From Akkermansia muciniphila (GTDB lineage Bacteria; Verrucomicrobiota; Verrucomicrobiia; Verrucomicrobiales; DEV007): DNA of 64,000 bases. The notes beneath the pieces are model-generated. The model had not been told where the DNA came from. It saw only the letters and a list, made by a program, of their open reading frames with translations, and ran no database searches. Numbering within the stretch: position 1 is the first letter of the stretch; each line of letters opens with the position of its first letter. Positions 2,417 to 12,160 of the stretch are shown here, piece after piece. The translations under genes were made by a program, and so were the position numbers. The stretch is from the NCBI GenBank assembly GCA_945883495.1, contig CAMCXS010000001.1, positions 124,001-188,000 of the forward strand, given 5' to 3'.

Positions 2417-3214
2417 ATGGAAGAATATCATCGACTGCTCCGCCTAGTCCTGGACCACGGCAAACCCGTAGCGGACCGCACGGGAACGGGAACGCTTTCC
2501 GTCTTTGGGGCACAGGCGCGCTTCGACTTGCGCGAGCGTTTTCCCTGCGTCACCACCAAAAAGCTGCACCTGCGCTCGATCATCCATGAGTTGCTCTGGT
2601 TCCTCAAGGGCGACACGAACATCGCCTACCTGCACGAACACGGGGTCACGATTTGGGACGAATGGGCCGACCAAAACGGCGACCTCGGTCCAGTTTACGG
2701 CAAACAATGGCGTCGCTGGGAAGGAGCTCCGGGCGCGGCGCCGATCGATCAAATCGCGCAAGTGATCGAGCAAATCCGAAATAATCCGCACAGTCGCCGC
2801 CTCATCGTGAGCGCTTGGAACCCGGTGGACGTCCCGCAAATGGCCTTGCCTCCGTGCCACAGCCTGTTTCAGTTTCACGTGCTCGACGGAGAACTCAGCT
2901 GCCAGCTCTACCAGCGCAGCGCGGACTTGTTCCTCGGCGTGCCGTTCAACATCGCATCGTACGCCCTGCTCACCCTAATGGTCGCCCAGGTTACCGGTCT
3001 GCGTCCCGGAGATTTCGTCCACACCTTCGGGGACTTGCACCTGTATCAAAACCACCTGGAGCAGGCTTGCCTTCAGCTCTCCCGGGATTGCCGACCGTTG
3101 CCTTTCATGCGTCTGAATCCGGCGGTGACCAAAATCGACGCCTTCACGTATGAAGACTTCACGCTCGAAGGCTACGATCCCCATCCGGCGATCCGCGCCC
3201 CAATCGCCGTCTGA
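2417..3214 (+). CDS. thyA: thymidylate synthase
   Basis: Methylates dUMP to dTMP using methylene-tetrahydrofolate, producing dihydrofolate. At 265 aa it has the normal length of the short ThyA form. The catalytic cysteine is Cys147 in [12 protein letters not shown]. Other landmarks are [12 protein letters not shown] (20-31), the dUMP-binding [18 protein letters not shown], and GDLHLYQNH. It starts 6 bases after yraN and is followed 11 bases later by dihydrofolate reductase, which regenerates the cofactor it oxidises, so the two are almost certainly co-transcribed. Confidence 0.98.
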
Positions 3215-3225
3215 AACCAGCTTTC

Positions 3226-3705
3226 ATGAATCGCCCCTTCACCGTCGCCGTCGTCGCGATGTCGCCAAACCGGGTCATTGGGCGCGGAGGTCAGCTGCCG
3301 TGGCATTTACCGGGTGATCTCCGTTTTTTCCGGCGCGCCACGATTGGACAGGCGGTTTTGATGGGGCGTAAGACCTGGGAATCGATCGGCAAGGCGCTTC
3401 CGGGGCGTCGCAACATCGTGCTTTCGCGCTCAAATCTGGATTTGCCGGACGGGGTGGACCTGATTCACGCGCCGGAAGAGATCGCGGGATTGCGGATTTC
3501 GACGAAGCTTTGCGTGATCGGAGGCGCGGAGATCTACCGGTTGCTCCTGCCGGAGTGCGACGAACTATTGCTGACGTGGGTGAAACGGACCTACGAGGGA
3601 GACACGTTCTTTCCGGACTTTGAAGACCGCTTCGTATTGTCAGAAGTCCTGGAAGACGCAGAAGAGTTTGAGGTGAGGCGGTACAAATTAAGAAGATCGG
3701 AATGA
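3226..3705 (+). CDS. folA: dihydrofolate reductase
   Basis: Reduces dihydrofolate to tetrahydrofolate with NADPH. The 159 aa chain shows the family landmarks in order: NRVIGRGGQLPWHLPGDLRFFRR with the substrate-binding Asp, VLMGRKTWESIG, RNIVLSR, VIGGAEIYRL and DTFFPDF near the C terminus. It is the expected partner of the thyA gene 11 bases upstream and probably ends that operon. An imperfect hairpin without a T-run follows at about 3756-3790. Confidence 0.97.
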   Translation: MNRPFTVAVVAMSPNRVIGRGGQLPWHLPGDLRFFRRATIGQAVLMGRKTWESIGKALPGRRNIVLSRSNLDLPDGVDLIHAPEEIAGLRISTKLCVIGGAEIYRLLLPECDELLLTWVKRTYEGDTFFPDFEDRFVLSEVLEDAEEFEVRRYKLRRSE

Positions 3706-4404: not shown

Positions 4405-5436
4405 ATGCCTTCTTCGTCTTCGCCCCGCCTGGGCCGCCGCCGTTTTCTGCAACTGCTCCCGATCGCCACCGGCGCCGCCGTTGTGCGCGCCAAAGCCGAA
4501 ACGAGTGCGGCCTCACGATTCCCGATTTCCTTGGCGCAGTGGTCGCTGCATCGGGCGTTAAAGGGGGGGCAGCTCGATCCCTTGGATTGGCCGGCCTACA
4601 CCAAGAAGAAGTTTGGGCTCACCGCCCTGGAACACGTGAATCAGTTTTTCGCGCAGGGCGACCGAGCCAAGGACCGTTACGGCTTGCAGCCCAAGCCTCA
4701 GGATTACTTCGTTGAGTTGGCCAAGCGAATCACGGGCGAAGGAATGCGTAGCGTGCTCATCATGTGTGATGGGGTGGGCAATCTGGGAGATCCCGACCCT
4801 GCCCGCCGCACGGACGCAGTGGAAGGTCATTACGCTTGGCTCGACACCGCCCTGCTCCTTGGCTGCCACGCCATCCGCGTCAATGCGGGCTCCGATCCAA
4901 AGCTGATGCCCGAGGAGCAAGCCCGCCTGTGCGCCGATGGTCTGCGCCGGCTCTCGGAAGCAGCCGCTCCACGCGGATTGAAGGTCATCGTAGAGAATCA
5001 CGGAGGACTCTCCTCGGACGGCGCCTGGCTTGCCTCGGTGATGCGGATGGTGAACCTGGGGAACTGCGGCACCCTGCCGGACTTTGGGAACTTCTACCTT
5101 GTGAAGAATCGGGGCAATGCGGAGGATTACGAACGTCAAAAGCCCCTTTTCGTGGGCCGCAAAACCTCCGAGGACGAGAAAGGTCTGTTTTACGATCGCT
5201 ATCAGGGAGTCACGGATCTGATGCCCTTCGCCAAAGGCGTCAGCGCCAAGAGCCACGACTTCAACGACGCAGGAGATGAGATCCATACCGATTTCGCGCG
5301 AATGATGCAGATCGTGGCCGCATCCGGTTACTCAGGCCATGTCGGCATCGAATATGAAGGAGACTCGCTCTCCGAAGACGAGGGGATTCTTAAGACCAAA
5401 GCCCTCCTGGAGCGCGTCTTGGCCACTCTGGGTTGA
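4405..5436 (+). CDS. Tat-exported sugar isomerase/epimerase-like TIM-barrel protein
   Basis: The N terminus carries a twin-arginine signal (GRRRFLQLLPIATGAAVVRAKA, broken as RRRFLQ plus a hydrophobic stretch), so the protein is probably exported folded. The body resembles the xylose-isomerase-like TIM barrel: FPISLAQWSLHRA at the first strand, VIVENHGG with a metal-site Glu and His, and GHVGIEYEGDSLSEDEGI near the end with another metal-site Glu. Such exported members are abundant in PVC bacteria; substrates are mostly unknown. Length 343 aa. The following gene starts 48 bases downstream. Confidence 0.85.
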   Translation: MPSSSSPRLGRRRFLQLLPIATGAAVVRAKAETSAASRFPISLAQWSLHRALKGGQLDPLDWPAYTKKKFGLTALEHVNQFFAQGDRAKDRYGLQPKPQDYFVELAKRITGEGMRSVLIMCDGVGNLGDPDPARRTDAVEGHYAWLDTALLLGCHAIRVNAGSDPKLMPEEQARLCADGLRRLSEAAAPRGLKVIVENHGGLSSDGAWLASVMRMVNLGNCGTLPDFGNFYLVKNRGNAEDYERQKPLFVGRKTSEDEKGLFYDRYQGVTDLMPFAKGVSAKSHDFNDAGDEIHTDFARMMQIVAASGYSGHVGIEYEGDSLSEDEGILKTKALLERVLATLG

Positions 5437-5483
5437 ATCTTCGCTCCAGGTTTGCCGACCTATTCTCAAGCGCCCATGCAGCC

Positions 5484-6386
5484 ATGAACAAGAATGCGGT
5501 GATTGGAATCCTCGGCGGCGTGGTCGCCCTGGCGATCGCGGGGTTTGGCATCTCCGAGCACCTCGTGAACCAAGAGTTGCGCCGGAGCTTTGACAAGGAA
5601 CTGGCCAAGCTCGAAGACCAGGCATCGATCACCTATGACCGTTTCCACTACAGCCTGCTGACCCGGCAAGCTAAGGCCCGAGGCATCACCGCCACCACCG
5701 CCGACGGTACCCTGCGCCTTCTCATTGAGGAACTGACGGTGCATCGTTGGGAGCGGAATGAGGAACTCGACCTCCTCACTTCCCTCCGCTTGTCCGGTCG
5801 CGGCGTTCGCCTGCGTCAGAAGAAAGGCGACGACTACACCCCGTCCCTTTCCGGGCTCGGTTACAGTGATCCCAAACTGAGCTTTCTCGTGGATCATGCC
5901 TTCGACCCGGCCACCCAAACGCTGACTATTAGCGAGGCCAGCGTTGCGGGAGCGGAAATGGGCAGCCTTGATCTGAAGTCACAATTCAGCGGCTTACGGC
6001 AGCTCAACACCAAGGAGCTCACCGGCGGCAACCTCCTCCAAATCGCCGCCAGCATCGGAAACTTGCAATTCCACGGGGCCACCGTCGCCTACACCGACGA
6101 AGGCTTGACAGAGCGAATCCTGGCGCAGCGCGAGACCGAACAAAAGACGAGCCGTGAAAAGATCGTCGCCGGCGTGGCCAAGAGCATGCGCGAACAGCGG
6201 TTTTTCCGGTTTTCCGACGAAATGATCCAAGAAGTGTCCGCCTTCCTCCAAAAACCCGGTAAACTGCGGATCGAATCCACTCCTAGCCAACCCGTGGGTC
6301 GCGAACTGATCGGGATGACCTTGCTCTTCCGCGGCAATCTCCTCCAAGTCCTCGGCGTGACCATCCGCAACGGAGTCGCCGGCTGA
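5484..6386 (+). CDS. membrane-anchored periplasmic protein, unknown function
   Basis: ATG at 5484 gives 300 aa starting MNKNAVIGILGGVVALAIAG, a single N-terminal anchor or uncleaved signal. The rest is predicted to be periplasmic, with a helical DKELAKLEDQASITYDRF region followed by beta-rich sequence. The layout (anchor, then a beta-rich body lacking other membrane segments) recalls the DUF945/YdgA type, but I cannot confirm homology. An in-frame TTG at 5433 would overlap the preceding stop codon but adds only an unlikely N-terminal tail. It follows the TIM-barrel gene and may share its transcript. Confidence 0.7.
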   Translation: MNKNAVIGILGGVVALAIAGFGISEHLVNQELRRSFDKELAKLEDQASITYDRFHYSLLTRQAKARGITATTADGTLRLLIEELTVHRWERNEELDLLTSLRLSGRGVRLRQKKGDDYTPSLSGLGYSDPKLSFLVDHAFDPATQTLTISEASVAGAEMGSLDLKSQFSGLRQLNTKELTGGNLLQIAASIGNLQFHGATVAYTDEGLTERILAQRETEQKTSREKIVAGVAKSMREQRFFRFSDEMIQEVSAFLQKPGKLRIESTPSQPVGRELIGMTLLFRGNLLQVLGVTIRNGVAG

Positions 6387-6454: not shown

Positions 6455-8224
6455 ATGGACCCCAGCCGCATCGCCTTTGGACTTTGGAACAGCGCCTCCG
6501 CCGCACCGGGGCGCGGTCAGCCAAGCCCCCATGAAGCCCTCGTCCGCGTCGCACTCGAAGGCGGCTTCCGTACCTTCATCACTTCGGACGCGATCGAAGC
6601 GGGGGCAGCCGATCGGGGGCTGGGCACCGCGCTGGCAGCCACCGGGTTGCGTCAGGAATGTTTCATCGCGGGCTGCATCGGCGCCCCAGCCCCTGGTCAC
6701 GGCGGTGATTACGGCGGAGCCGGAGCCGCTGGCGAGGGCCAGTCAGACGAGGAGATCAAACGATTTGTCCGAGAAGCGGCCATCGGAGTCCTGCAACGGA
6801 GTGAGGTCGGCCATCTTGACCTGCTTCTCTTTGAATCTCCCAGCCGCTGGGCGTTCCGTAGCGCCGCGCTGTGGGAGGCGATGAGCGAGCTCAAAACCGA
6901 GGGGCTGACCCGAGGTATCGGCATCGCGCCCGGCCCCTCCAACGGTTACGCTTTGGATCTGCTCCATTTTCTTGACCATTTCGGGGAAGGGATCGATTCC
7001 ACGATGATCGTCTTTAATCCGCTCGAGCCCTGGCCGGGCGAATTGATTTTCGCGGCGGCGAAAGCCAAGGGCGTTACGCTAATCGGGCGAGAAAGCGCCC
7101 CTCCACCGGGTCCGATGGCGCCTCGTGCCAATGAAGAACGCAGCGTTCGCATGGGACGAGTCTTTGAGCTGGCGACTCGTCACGGATTGGACGGCTGGCA
7201 ACTGCTGACCGCTTGGACCACCGCCCCCGAGCCGGCGATCTCCTACGCGCCTCGGCTCTTACCGTCGGCTACGCAGTCGTTGGAGGACGTCATTCGCGCG
7301 GCCGGTTCCGCACACACACACACCGATTCGGCCGAAGTCGCCTTCTCGGAACTCCGGCAAATCGGGGAAAACAAGGGCCGGGTTGCGCTCAAGGGCGGCA
7401 GCCAACAGTTTCAAGGCAAGCCACAGGCGGAACAATGGCCGCTCGACGTCGCGTTGCTCGAAACCGCGGCGCGGCATCAGCTCGTGCTGGACCGAGATTA
7501 CTTCTGCGCCCACGATCCTCGGGATCTTCGCGATTTCGGCATGCCGGTGCGTGGCGTCCCGCAGGCGATCGATCGCCGGCTTTTCATGCAATTGCAGGTG
7601 GTGACAGGCATTTCCAATCGCCAACAAGCGGTGAGCGATCTTCAGTCCGCCGATGCGGCCGCGGTGCTCTACGCGGACCTCAACGATCCGCGCGCGGTGG
7701 GCCTTTTGCTCTGGGACGAAGATCCGTTGCAGCTCAGCGCCAAAGCGGACGCCGTCCAGGCCCTCCCCTCCTTTGCGGCCGGACGGATTCGCCCTGAATT
7801 CACCATGCTGGCCCGCAGTTACGCCTTCGGCCGGGAAGACGATGTTAGATATTGGCTCACCCGCCGTCCCATCGAAGTCGCTACGTATCCGAATCGCCCA
7901 TGGGCCGTTTGGTATCCGTTGCGTCGCAAGCCGGGCTTTTACCGATTGCCCAAGGATGAACAAGCCGAGATGCTCCGGGAACACGGCATCATCGGGCACA
8001 ACTTCGGCGCGGCGGGCTACGCCACGGACATCCGGCTGGAGTGTTTCGGGATGGATCCCGCGGACAATGAGTTTGTCCTCGGCTTGCTCAGTGAACGGCT
8101 CGACTGGTTGTCCCGCTTGGTGAAGGAAATGCGCGCGACTCGCCAGACAGGAGAATTCATGGATCATCTGGGTCCGTTCTTCGTCGGACACACGATCTAT
8201 CAGAACGCTGGACCGCATGCTTGA
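6455..8224 (+). CDS. fusion of a degenerate aldo/keto-reductase-like domain and a chlorite-dismutase-family (ChdC-like) domain
   Basis: Residues 1 to about 300 follow the aldo/keto reductase layout (ALVRVALEGGFRTFI, LDLLLFESPS, AMSELKTEGLTRGIGIAPG), but FITSDAIEAG replaces the usual FDTA-YG, FIAGCIG replaces the usual Lys segment and FES replaces the His strand, so the Asp-Tyr-Lys-His tetrad seems lost. Residues about 371-585 match the chlorite dismutase/coproheme decarboxylase family: LLLWDEDPLQL, AVWYPLRRKPGFYRL (Tyr487), EMLREHGIIGHNF (His510, aligned with the proximal haem ligand) and LGPFFVG. In ChdC this family converts coproheme to haem b. ATG 6455 is preceded by AAAGAGAGAG. The gene overlaps the next by 8 bases. 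Confidence 0.82.
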   Translation: MDPSRIAFGLWNSASAAPGRGQPSPHEALVRVALEGGFRTFITSDAIEAGAADRGLGTALAATGLRQECFIAGCIGAPAPGHGGDYGGAGAAGEGQSDEEIKRFVREAAIGVLQRSEVGHLDLLLFESPSRWAFRSAALWEAMSELKTEGLTRGIGIAPGPSNGYALDLLHFLDHFGEGIDSTMIVFNPLEPWPGELIFAAAKAKGVTLIGRESAPPPGPMAPRANEERSVRMGRVFELATRHGLDGWQLLTAWTTAPEPAISYAPRLLPSATQSLEDVIRAAGSAHTHTDSAEVAFSELRQIGENKGRVALKGGSQQFQGKPQAEQWPLDVALLETAARHQLVLDRDYFCAHDPRDLRDFGMPVRGVPQAIDRRLFMQLQVVTGISNRQQAVSDLQSADAAAVLYADLNDPRAVGLLLWDEDPLQLSAKADAVQALPSFAAGRIRPEFTMLARSYAFGREDDVRYWLTRRPIEVATYPNRPWAVWYPLRRKPGFYRLPKDEQAEMLREHGIIGHNFGAAGYATDIRLECFGMDPADNEFVLGLLSERLDWLSRLVKEMRATRQTGEFMDHLGPFFVGHTIYQNAGPHA

Positions 8225-9107
8225 TCTCGGGGACCTCGCTGAACTGGTGGCACGCTACGGGGACAGCCTCCAAGCGCGCCCGGCGGCCTTTGCCCTGCGT
8301 GGCCGGACGTTTCGCCACCACCCGTATCCCGATCTCATGGGAGTGGTCAACCTCTCTCCGGACTCCTGGTACCGGGAAAGTGTCAGCCTCTCCACTGAAA
8401 CGGCCATTCGCCGTGGACAACGGCTCTTGGCGGACGGAGCGACGGTCATCGACATTGGCGCCGAGTCCACTTTGGGTCACGCCGCCCGCGTGGACGAGAA
8501 AGGCCAACGCACCGCTCTTTTGCCGGTCATCACCGCCCTTGCCGAGGCAGGCGCCATCGTTTCCGCGGAAACCTACGATCAGAAAGTGGCGGAAGCCTGT
8601 CTTGATGCCGGGGCGGGCATCCTCAATTTGACCTCCGCAACGGAGACGGAGGACTTTTACCGGCTCGTGGCGGAACGGGAAGCCGGAGTAATCATCTGCT
8701 ACATCCAAGGGCGGCATGTCCGCGACGTCACGGATTTCTCATTAGCAGAGGACCACATCGCCGTGCTGGAAGAGTATTTCCGGCGGGAAACCGACTTGGC
8801 GTTCAGCCTTGGTGTGAAGCGACTCTGGATCGACCCGGGCCTTGGGTTTTACTACCGGAACTTGATGGATTCCAAGGAGCGGATCCGCTACCAGATGCGG
8901 ACGTTTCTTCATACCTTCCGGCTCCGCGCACTCGGCTGGCCCGTTTGCCAAGCATTGCCGCACGCCTTTGAATTCTTCGAGGAAGAAGTGCGCTCGGCCG
9001 AGCCGTTCTTCGCCGTTTTGGCCTCGCTGGGCCGGACGGATCTGATTCGTACCCACGAAGTCAACAGGGTCCGCGCCGTGATCCACACGCTTCAGGCTTA
9101 TGAGTGA
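8217..9107 (+). CDS. dihydropteroate-synthase-fold protein, divergent
   Basis: The 296 aa chain follows the pterin-binding TIM barrel of DHPS: MGVVNLSPDSWYRES (41-55, canonical MG-LNVTPDSF), GATVIDIGAEST (74-85), VSAETYDQKVAEACL (115-129, canonical VDT), GILNLTSA (134-141), IQGRHV, LWIDPGLGF (203-211) and LIRTHEVNRV (276-285). The Arg-Pro after GAEST and the GxSRK segment of real FolP enzymes are missing, so ordinary folate synthesis is doubtful. It overlaps both neighbours by 8 bases, which implies translational coupling. Pterin binding is inferred from the fold only. Confidence 0.8.
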   Translation: MLDLGDLAELVARYGDSLQARPAAFALRGRTFRHHPYPDLMGVVNLSPDSWYRESVSLSTETAIRRGQRLLADGATVIDIGAESTLGHAARVDEKGQRTALLPVITALAEAGAIVSAETYDQKVAEACLDAGAGILNLTSATETEDFYRLVAEREAGVIICYIQGRHVRDVTDFSLAEDHIAVLEEYFRRETDLAFSLGVKRLWIDPGLGFYYRNLMDSKERIRYQMRTFLHTFRLRALGWPVCQALPHAFEFFEEEVRSAEPFFAVLASLGRTDLIRTHEVNRVRAVIHTLQAYE

Positions 9108-9819
9108 CCATCCCGTGGCCCTCGTCACGGGCGGAGGCAGTGGATTGGGTGCAGGTCTGTGCCGTCACCTCGCCCGCTCGGGCTGGAACGTGGCCATTCA
9201 TTACCATTCCTCCCGAGCTTCCGCCGAACTGGTGCTCCGCGATATCGAATCCGCCGGTCAAGAAGGAATGCTGCTGCCGGCGGACCTTGGACGCGAAGCG
9301 GAGGTTACCCAGCTCTTGGCAGAGTTTTCCAGCCGGTTCGGCCACCTCGAACTTCTGATCAACAACGCAGGGGTTTACCACGAAAAAGGCTTCGCGGACC
9401 TCACCGAGGCGGACTGGTTCACGGAATTCAACTCCACCGCCACCGCCGTCTATTTCACGACTCGCGCCTGCCTGCCGCTGTTGCGGGCCTCCCGGGGCCG
9501 GGTCATCAACATCGGCGATAGCGCATGCGACCGGCCAGGAGCGCGCACCATGGCCCCGGCGTATCACATCGGGAAAACCGGCGTCTATATCCTGACGCGC
9601 TCGTTCGCCAAAGCGGAAGCGTCGCACGGCGTGGCGGTGAATCTGCTCTCCCCCGGCTTGCTGGAAACAAGCGTCGGCTTGGGGGAGCCAGATGAGGTCC
9701 CCGCCGGCCGCTTCGGCACGTTTGAGGACATCTTCGCCGCTGTCGATTTCCTTACAAACGTGGACACACCGTATCTCACCGGATCTCATCTCATCGCTGG
9801 CGGCGGTTGGAATTTGTGA
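9100..9819 (+). CDS. short-chain dehydrogenase/reductase, pteridine-reductase-like
   Basis: An SDR of 239 aa with the nucleotide motif VTGGGSGLGAGL (9-20), INNAG (87-91) and the YHIGK active-site pair (Tyr155, Lys159). The usual catalytic serine position is occupied by Asp140 in VINIGDSACDRPG, the arrangement known in PTR1 and FolM pteridine reductases. The strand-2 segment AIHYHSSRASAE also resembles the PTR1 HYHRSAAEA region. A reduced pterin as substrate is therefore a reasonable inference, supported by the DHPS-like neighbour with which it overlaps by 8 bases. A different ketone substrate remains possible. Confidence 0.85.
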   Translation: MSDHPVALVTGGGSGLGAGLCRHLARSGWNVAIHYHSSRASAELVLRDIESAGQEGMLLPADLGREAEVTQLLAEFSSRFGHLELLINNAGVYHEKGFADLTEADWFTEFNSTATAVYFTTRACLPLLRASRGRVINIGDSACDRPGARTMAPAYHIGKTGVYILTRSFAKAEASHGVAVNLLSPGLLETSVGLGEPDEVPAGRFGTFEDIFAAVDFLTNVDTPYLTGSHLIAGGGWNL

Positions 9820-9820
9820 C

Positions 9821-10810
9821 GTGACCTGCGCCGATCAGATTCCCGAACCCGTTTGGATTCACCCCTCCCGTTGGATGGAGTCGATCGCGGAACGCCGCCG
9901 ATTGGCTCTGCCCCTCGGCTCGATCCCGGCGGAGTTTCATTATGTCGGTCACCGGCAAAGCGAACTTTGGCTGGCGGTGGCCCGCTGCCACGCGCCGACC
10001 GGTCTCGATATCTTTTATCGCGGGGCGTTCGCCGCTCTACCGATTCCCCACCTACCCCACCTCGTCGGACTTGGCCCCGGCAGCGCGCAGAAAGAGGCTT
10101 GGCTCCAAGAAAAGCTCCAGGCTCGACGATTCACTCCGGTCGATGTCAGCGAGTCCCTGTCGCTGTTTTCGGCGCTCCGCCTGCGGCCTCATGTAGCCCA
10201 TGCGCCTCGACCGCTGGTCGCCGATTTGACGCGATTTCCGAATCTACCGGACTGGCTTTCGGAGTTTGACGGCGGAGAGCCGCGGCTCTTTTCCGCGTTC
10301 GGGGTGACTCCGAACCTTCCGCCCGGCGAGCTCGATCCAGCGCTCCGTGCTTTTCTCAGACCAGAGGATTGGCTGCTCATCAGCGCCAATTTGATCCCTG
10401 GCGGCGACGCGAATTCGATTCTTCCTCAGTATGACAACTCCGAAACCCGGGCCTGGCTGCGGGAGCTGCTTTTGCAATGGGGCATCGCCCCCCATCTGGG
10501 CGAGATAGACTTCGACGTGCAAGAGACCGCCCCTGGAGAAGCTTGCATCTCGGCTCAGGCTACTTGGAAGCAAAACGTTTGCTTCCCTTGGGCAGGCTCC
10601 CTGTTCCAGCCATCGCCCGGCACACCGTTGCTGCTGTTTCGCAGTTTGCGTTACTCGCCGGAAGCCTTTGGCGCCCGCCTGCGACGTGCGGGCTTCGACG
10701 AGGCAGGGGTATCGATCAGCCAGGGCGTTGAGGAAGGGCTCTGGCTGGCAAGAAAGCGACCGGCGTCCCAACTCGGGAACGCCGGTCTTCTCAACACATT
10801 CAACAAATGA
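9821..10810 (+). CDS. EgtD-like (Methyltransf_33 type) SAM-dependent methyltransferase
   Basis: With the GTG at 9821, one base after the SDR stop, the protein has 329 aa. VGLGPGSAQKEAWL resembles the SAM-binding ELG-GN-TK segment of the histidine N-alpha-methyltransferase EgtD, followed by FTPVDVSESL (canonical Y-PVDVS). FSAFGVTPNLPPGELDPAL and WLLISANLIPGGDANSILPQYDN match the later FLGSTIGN and DL-K--- LL-AYDD regions. EgtD methylates histidine in ergothioneine synthesis, but no egtB-like gene is present, so the substrate here is open. The C-terminal residues are encoded by a strong hairpin at 10758-10786. Confidence 0.75.
   Translation: MTCADQIPEPVWIHPSRWMESIAERRRLALPLGSIPAEFHYVGHRQSELWLAVARCHAPTGLDIFYRGAFAALPIPHLPHLVGLGPGSAQKEAWLQEKLQARRFTPVDVSESLSLFSALRLRPHVAHAPRPLVADLTRFPNLPDWLSEFDGGEPRLFSAFGVTPNLPPGELDPALRAFLRPEDWLLISANLIPGGDANSILPQYDNSETRAWLRELLLQWGIAPHLGEIDFDVQETAPGEACISAQATWKQNVCFPWAGSLFQPSPGTPLLLFRSLRYSPEAFGARLRRAGFDEAGVSISQGVEEGLWLARKRPASQLGNAGLLNTFNK
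10758..10786 (-). terminator. hairpin, probable terminator of the minus-strand OMP gene, inside the methyltransferase 3' end
   Basis: Arms GACCGGCGTCCC and GGGAACGCCGGTC pair with one mismatch around a 4-5 base loop. On the minus strand the stem is followed by GCTTTCTTGCC, a weak T-rich tail. It lies 54 bases beyond the stop of the gene at 10840-11355 and at the same time encodes the last residues of the plus-strand methyltransferase. Confidence 0.5.
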
Positions 10811-10839: not shown

Positions 10840-11355
10840 TTAGAACGGAACGCGAACGCCGAGACGAAGGTGAAGCGCGTCTGGCTCTTCTTGAATCCAG
10901 TTGTAGGTCGCATCGGAGAAGACCGCGATGCAGTTGTCCAACCGGTATTCTAAACCACCGCCCAGGCGGTACGCCCCTTCGGTGAAGGAGTTCGCAAAGA
11001 CGGCGCCACCGCCCATGACGTACGGAGCCCAGCAGCTGTAGCCGAGCGGCAGTCGGTAAATCAAGTCCAGGGCGTTGATGTGCATCTCCGAGTCCGTGGC
11101 GTGAACGGAGTAGCTGTATTCGAGTCCGATGTTCTCTGTGAAGAAGTAGGTGAAGGCGACGCCACCGCCGGCAGCGCTTTCTTCATTTTCTCCTCGCGGC
11201 AGATAGCCAGACGCGAAGGCCCCAACTTGGAGACCCGGGAAGAAGCAGGGGCAGCTGGGATCCACGGGGAGCGGGTTCTTGTCGATCACGGGACCGGCGG
11301 AGGCAAATCCCATGCCAAAGGCAAGAGTCGCAATTGTGACTTGGAGTAGTTTCAT
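10840..11355 (-). CDS. small outer-membrane beta-barrel protein (copy 1)
   Basis: ATG at 11355 gives 171 aa with a cleavable signal (MKLLQVTIATLAFGMGFASA). The mature part begins GPVIDKN and continues with a DPSCPCFFPG cysteine motif, then alternating amphipathic strands (LQVGAFASGYL, GVAFTYFFTENIGLEYSYSV, LDLIYRLPLGYSCWAPYVMGGGAVF, GAYRLGGGLEYRL) ending LRLGVRVPF with a terminal aromatic, as outer-membrane barrels do. It is a clear paralogue of the gene at 11590-12096, about 235 bases upstream on the same strand. Function unknown beyond envelope location. Confidence 0.8.
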   Translation of the reverse strand: MKLLQVTIATLAFGMGFASAGPVIDKNPLPVDPSCPCFFPGLQVGAFASGYLPRGENEESAAGGGVAFTYFFTENIGLEYSYSVHATDSEMHINALDLIYRLPLGYSCWAPYVMGGGAVFANSFTEGAYRLGGGLEYRLDNCIAVFSDATYNWIQEEPDALHLRLGVRVPF

Positions 11356-11522
11356 GCGACTCACTGTAGAGAACCTGTTAGGATCGTCAACGCGAATTTC
11401 TTCGTAAGCTTTAATACTCGGATAGACAAAATTTCCCAAAAGATTGGAGGATTAAAGCGGTGGAGAATCAAAGATTTTTTATAAGATCAGCCAGGTTGAA
11501 TGCCTTCCAGCGGGCAGCGTAA

Positions 11523-11589: not shown

Positions 11590-12096
11590 TTAGAACGCGA
11601 AGCGATAGCCCAAGCGCACTTGAACAGAGTCGTCCAGAGTGGCAAGCCAGTTGTAAGTGCCGTCAGCGAAGATCGCCGAGCAATTAGCAAGGCGGTATTC
11701 GATCCCAGCACCGGCACGGTAAGCACCTTGGTTGGATCCATCGGAGAACAGCGCACCACCACCGATGATGTACGGGGCCCAGCAGCTGTTGCCAAGAGGC
11801 ATACGATAGACCAAGTCAAGGGCATTGACGTGTTCTTCGCTGTCGGTAGCGTGAACGGCATAGCTATAAAGGACGCCGAAGTTCTCATTGAAGAAATAAG
11901 AGAGTTCGACACCGCCCCCGAGGGCGTCCTCTTGAGGTCCGTTCAAGAGACCAGAAGCGAAAACGCCGACACCCCAACCAGCGTTGAAGCACTGGCAGGT
12001 GGGATCGACCACAACGTTCTTATCAATCACAGGGCCGGCGACGGCGAAACCGACGAGGGCCCCAAGGGTTGCAACTGACGCGATTAGCTTTTTCAT
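11590..12096 (-). CDS. small outer-membrane beta-barrel protein (copy 2)
   Basis: ATG at 12096, preceded by a good Shine-Dalgarno stretch (AGGAGAGG), gives 168 aa. Signal MKKLIASVATLGALVGFAVA is followed by GPVIDKN and the DPTCQCFNAG cysteine motif, then barrel-like strands (GVGVFASGLL, GVELSYFFNENFGVLYSYAV, LDLVYRMPLGNSCWAPYIIGGGALF) and terminal VRLGYRFAF with a C-terminal Phe. Nearly every segment aligns with copy 1. The strong ribosome binding site and terminator suggest good expression. Family function is not known to me. Confidence 0.83.
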   Translation of the reverse strand: MKKLIASVATLGALVGFAVAGPVIDKNVVVDPTCQCFNAGWGVGVFASGLLNGPQEDALGGGVELSYFFNENFGVLYSYAVHATDSEEHVNALDLVYRMPLGNSCWAPYIIGGGALFSDGSNQGAYRAGAGIEYRLANCSAIFADGTYNWLATLDDSVQVRLGYRFAF

Positions 12097-12160
12097 GTCG
12101 CCTCTCCTACCTGATGTTTTTCCTAGGGTCAATCATTTTTCTGCAAACGGCCGAAGAATC

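Follow-up and report, generated by a model that had tools for sequence, protein, structure and literature searches.

Do four tightly spaced genes in a verrucomicrobial genome encode one pathway, and what might it make? The question is raised by a 64,000-nucleotide stretch of an Akkermansia muciniphila assembly (G000:C1:124001-188000, hereafter the window; G000 is the window genome). Here, a fusion gene is followed by genes for a paralogue of dihydropteroate synthase (DHPS), a short-chain dehydrogenase/reductase (SDR) and a methyltransferase resembling the histidine N-alpha-methyltransferase EgtD. The four genes are:

6455..8224, forward strand (+): fusion of an aldo-keto reductase (AKR)-like half and a chlorite dismutase (Cld)-family half, AKR-Cld, 589 amino acids (aa)
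8217..9107, +: DHPS-like paralogue, 296 aa, pterin pocket retained, motifs of the p-aminobenzoate (pABA) site replaced
9100..9819, +: SDR of the pteridine-reductase type, 239 aa, D140-Y155-K159 invariant
9821..10810, +: EgtD-like S-adenosylmethionine (SAM)-dependent methyltransferase, 329 aa, GTG start

A first-pass annotation of the window had described these genes as translationally coupled, with 8-base overlaps at the first two junctions and a 1-base gap before the methyltransferase gene, and had proposed that they form an undescribed pterin-related pathway. The coupling was confirmed at these coordinates. Another species of the genus (G002, locus L033) shows this arrangement too: all four genes are present in this order and both 8-base overlaps are kept, with a last gap of 6 bases rather than 1; identity to the window is 83-89% for genes 1-3 and 65% for gene 4. 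All four products match Pfam families above cut-offs: PF00248 and PF06778 (fusion), PF00809 (DHPS-like), PF00106/PF13561 (SDR) and PF10017 (methyltransferase). An in-frame ATG upstream at 9692 is a less likely start for the methyltransferase because most of its orthologues are about 330-345 aa long. The pathway proposal itself is partly supported: it is now better founded than it was from sequence alone, as a recurrent set of three genes with pterin-type residues but not as a four-gene pathway.

Recurrence of the three-gene core in Verrucomicrobiia

We searched a class sample of 286 Verrucomicrobiia genomes, taking EgtD-like matches at E 1e-6 and SDR matches at E 1e-45, and a sample of 57 close relatives. 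Strong DHPS-like orthologues (46-65% identity) were present in 101 class genomes from 34 families. EgtD-like matches occurred in 74 genomes, 72 of which also carry the DHPS-like gene, versus 29 of the remaining 212 (Fisher p ~5e-41, shared ancestry ignored). Counted by family, the DHPS-like gene accompanies the methyltransferase in 24 of 25. The SDR was matched in 50 genomes and is found together with the DHPS-like gene in 45 of them (Fisher p 9e-19, shared ancestry again ignored). The other five are G161, G261, G304, G095 and G236; the last two are incomplete and carry the methyltransferase. These results support the view that the DHPS-like protein, the SDR and the EgtD-like methyltransferase are a conserved, recurrent functional set in about 25-34 families of the class. 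In a phylum-wide sample, for which the share lying outside the class is not shown, no DHPS-like orthologue was found outside the class at E 1e-40, and we found no description of the gene set in open-access papers. Among the 57 close relatives the DHPS-like gene was restricted to G000 and G002, and therefore to one genus within the order, which probably acquired it by transfer.

The arrangement of the genes changes from lineage to lineage. The order DHPS-like, SDR, methyltransferase is found in family f45, with 4-base overlaps in G276, while the DHPS-like gene is followed by the SDR in f34, f37, f21, f41 and f9 and by the methyltransferase in G180. The DHPS-like and methyltransferase genes are convergent in f11, f22, f38, f40, f59 and f62. 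In f12 the SDR and methyltransferase genes are divergent, and the DHPS-like gene lies roughly 10-35 kb off. The association of the core genes is thus repeated and not a single frozen operon, and because the partners are rearranged between lineages, a shared function is favoured over one inherited block. The first-pass annotation had suggested searching for co-occurring orthologues and comparing neighbourhoods; within Verrucomicrobiia, such a comparison brought out the three core genes but not the fusion, and no constant order. No universal fourth neighbour was found among the neighbourhoods compared.

Pterin-site residues of the DHPS-like protein and the reductase

Canonical FolP, above the TIGR01496 cut-off of 162.6 bits, is also encoded in 49 of 51 genomes tested, so a folate operon does not explain the gene set, as the first-pass annotation had rightly maintained. 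With 122.6 bits for the window protein and 109-137 for its orthologues, the DHPS-like proteins stay below that cut-off. In a tree they form one clade apart from canonical FolP (support 100/100), and the window protein groups with f45 (94/95).

We compared 43 DHPS-like orthologues with 21 canonical FolP proteins of the same class. The pterin-side residues N45, D79, N137, D206, F211, R278 and H280 are kept; in solved DHPS structures the matching residues hold the pterin or stack against it (PMC3098144). The D96 position of DHPS is Glu118 in the orthologues, and the Lys221 position of the DHPS pterin pocket is not Lys. On the pABA side, the STRPGA and SRK motifs are lost: all or almost all of the 43 have other residues where these motifs have Arg, Pro, Ser, Arg and Lys. 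The new blocks SWYRES, GLGFYYRNL and LPHAFE are invariant or nearly so. The protein is therefore like FolP (TIGR01496, PF00809) and Sul1-3 in its fold and most of its pterin pocket, but unlike them in its sub-threshold score, its missing motifs, its own clade and its coexistence with a true FolP. By description, mycobacterial FolP2 offers a parallel as an additional gene of FolP type that lies apart from the folate operon; FolP2 of M. leprae is reported not to complement folP, but this gene clusters with cell-wall genes (PMC1971073). An AlphaFold2 (AF2) model of the DHPS-like protein (predicted local distance difference test, pLDDT, 91.6) has the DHPS TIM-barrel fold (Z 29.9 over 264 residues, root-mean-square deviation, rmsd, 2.5 to 3tyz). 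We set aside the idea that a Glu replacing the DHPS Lys points to a tetrahydropterin as the ligand, since the alignment has a two-residue insert there.

All 27 SDR orthologues compared have D140, Y155 and K159, which correspond to D181, Y194 and K198 of PTR1. PTR1 and FolM are marked by an Asp where SDRs usually have Ser. Among NCBIfam models, the SDR matches TmpR (NF012208) best, with 194.3 bits against a cut-off of 325. The SDR thus shares the Asp-Tyr-Lys triad and its Asp with PTR1, FolM and TmpR, but differs from these enzymes in scoring below the TmpR cut-off and in its linkage to a DHPS paralogue and a methyltransferase.

The TmpR match, together with matches of the DHPS-like protein to Sul models, could point to a spare folate route that bypasses antifolates. 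The DHPS-like protein would then be a sulfonamide-insensitive, Sul-like DHPS and the SDR a trimethoprim-insensitive, TmpR-like dihydrofolate reductase, and M. infernorum has been reported to lack FolA (PMC2474590). We nevertheless consider such a bypass very unlikely. Besides the insufficient TmpR score and the absence of SRK and STRPGA, the window genome holds both folA and FolP, and neither the methyltransferase nor the betaine transporter described below would be explained.

The EgtD-like methyltransferase and a candidate pathway

An AF2 model of the methyltransferase (pLDDT 94) aligned to EgtD structures with Z 26-31 over about 290 residues, the next family reaching Z 18, and 4uy6 was the best match (Z 31.1, 294 residues, rmsd 2.4). 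Tyr206, Ser284 and Asn166 of EgtD hold the carboxylate and amine of the amino acid (PMC8593015). The orthologues keep all three positions, as Y204 (41 of 41), S275 (40/41) and N165 (39/41) respectively, and, in a match made by eye, that of EgtD Tyr39 (Y41, 41/41). The likeness to EgtD therefore covers the whole fold and the residues that bind an alpha-amino acid, but the methyltransferase is far below the EgtD family cut-off (TIGR03438, 18.6 bits against 290.9) and has Phe at the Glu282 position in 39 of 41 orthologues. Glu282 is the residue with which EgtD reads the imidazole of histidine. According to the title of structure entry 4pip, an EgtD variant without Glu282 binds tryptophan. Together with the Phe at this position, this suggests that the substrate is likely an amino acid other than histidine.

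In three families, an OpuA/EgtU-type ATP-binding cassette (ABC) transporter with ATPase, permease and OpuAC binding domain is encoded directly upstream of the DHPS-like gene (G073 in f7, G059 in f9 and G138 in f36). OpuAC was matched once each in 22 of the 286 class genomes, 10 of which also have the DHPS-like gene. It lies directly upstream of that gene in five of the ten (G059, G073, G138, G178 and G274), three of them in one genus. The likeness of the binding domains to ProX, EgtU and choline/betaine binders points to a quaternary amine.

The EgtD fold and the adjacent transporter would also suit an ergothioneine-like amino-acid betaine pathway in which the DHPS fold was taken over for a non-pterin substrate and its likeness to pterin enzymes reflects ancestry only. 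The missing Lys of the pterin pocket would fit here as well. The remaining residues of this pocket are, however, invariant and the SDR retains the pteridine-reductase Asp, and we regard a pathway of this kind as quite unlikely.

What we consider somewhat probable is a module of three enzymes, the DHPS-like protein, a pteridine reductase and the EgtD-like methyltransferase, for a non-folate pterin that bears a betaine-like, N-methylated amino acid. Computation gave us the gene set with its pattern of co-occurrence, the paralogy, the folds, the retained and lost residues and the position of the transporter genes; from these we infer each reaction, the reaction order, the acceptor and the product. 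The DHPS-like enzyme would bind activated 6-hydroxymethyl-dihydropterin in its conserved pocket and join it to an acceptor other than pABA, and the SDR would carry the reduction of the pterin on to its tetrahydro form. The EgtD-like enzyme would N-methylate an alpha-amino acid, either free or attached to the pterin, probably to the betaine, which in some lineages may be moved by the OpuA/EgtU-type transporter encoded just upstream. A wider and more tentative proposal, unlikely as it stands, is that an undescribed class-wide pathway leads to a pterin betaine, in which a tetrahydropterin is linked to an N-methylated amino acid; this compound would serve as a cofactor or protectant and be transported in some lineages.

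Several observations weigh against the three-enzyme module. At the thresholds used, 29 of the 101 genomes with the DHPS-like gene have no methyltransferase match and 56 have no SDR match, which means either that genomes can do without the complete set or that divergence conceals the partners. Neighbouring genes vary by lineage (cytochrome oxidase genes, riboflavin synthase, the coproheme decarboxylase ChdC), and the betaine-type transporter is absent from most genomes, including that of the window. Finally, the changes in the DHPS-like protein need not, in principle, prevent it from using pABA. If the module does exist, it would extend DHPS chemistry to another acceptor and a second role in metabolism, and would give a common class of environmental bacteria a pterin cofactor or protectant of its own. 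Its genes would no longer be taken in annotation for those of folate synthesis, trimethoprim resistance or ergothioneine synthesis, and they offer three named targets in a set of genomes to which complete and probably cultured strains belong.

The AKR-Cld fusion and other neighbouring genes

The first-pass annotation had also counted the haem-linked fusion gene as a member of the pathway, which its distribution does not support. Among the 57 relatives the fusion was found in G000, G002 and G006 only, and G006 gave no match for the DHPS-like gene. No match to the fusion was found in plasmids. The three genomes lack the canonical ChdC held by most relatives, and the simpler view is that the fusion serves as their ChdC, though G000 has another, weak Cld match on contig C161. 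Judged from sequence, the fusion is probably a genus-level add-on, the lineage's ChdC having been placed before the module.

The naming of the gene as a ChdC/AKR fusion agrees with its Pfam matches, but in the window genus the AKR half (about residues 1-343) has lost a conserved Tyr and His: G000 and G002, but not G006, have I47 and E127 where 30 standalone homologues have these residues. The Cld half matches PF06778 at 57.4 bits (cut-off 25). As in ChdC, the catalytic Tyr and proximal His are retained (aligned to Y487 and H510, and invariant in 33 ChdC). Unlike ChdC, the protein carries an AKR-like half, has lost the N-terminal motifs and has Asp525 for the distal Gln that is invariant in this ChdC type, a position at which other ChdC types differ too.

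Could the fusion still be a true fourth step, bringing haem or coproheme chemistry into the same pathway? Its 8-base overlap with the DHPS-like gene is kept in two species, and a canonical ChdC adjoins the module in one other family, f45, with which the window DHPS-like protein groups. However, G006 has the fusion without the module, the fusion is otherwise absent, and no Cld gene was found near the module in most module genomes examined. With no canonical ChdC in the three fusion genomes, the gene has another job. We doubt that the fusion is a pathway step, and the link between ChdC and the three-enzyme module is weak. A general linkage of AKR and ChdC was rejected, as standalone AKR homologues occur in scattered contexts and near ChdC only in G044. 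Ferrochelatase (PF00762) had no match in G000, G001, G002, G005, G006, G020, G180, G253 and G276, most of which carry ChdC or the fusion; one idea is that these genomes use a route from sirohaem to coproheme that ends in ChdC.

Other genes recur near the core. SCO1 and/or DUF420 genes were seen near the DHPS-like or methyltransferase gene at nine loci (L106, L107, L108, L111, L145, L148, L149, L160 and L164), five of which have further cytochrome-oxidase-type genes beside them. This adjacency in several families probably reflects a shared ancestral order. A riboflavin-synthase-like gene lies directly 3' of the SDR in L137-L142 (f12) and L165 (f57), with PF00677 confirmed in L137 and L165. A gene of 385-404 aa, at most weakly glycosyltransferase-like, is near the DHPS-like gene in three families (L098, L099 and L104), and a flavin adenine dinucleotide (FAD)-linked oxidase gene is next to the DHPS-like gene at L103:10486-11865 and, in another family, next to the methyltransferase gene at L153:1418-2788.

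Upstream of the cluster in the window are thyA (2417-3214) and folA (3226-3705), as the first-pass annotation had pointed out. Neither was found near the cluster of G002, and with this proximity absent from the sister species we rejected a link between them and the cluster. Two nearer genes are also upstream of the cluster in that species: a xylose-isomerase-like TIM-barrel gene (4405-5436, +) and a 317-aa gene without a Pfam match (5433-6386, +), which overlap by 4 bases in the window. Downstream, the neighbouring genes at 10840-11439 and 11590-12132 (-) encode similar outer-membrane beta-barrel proteins and probably arose by tandem duplication.

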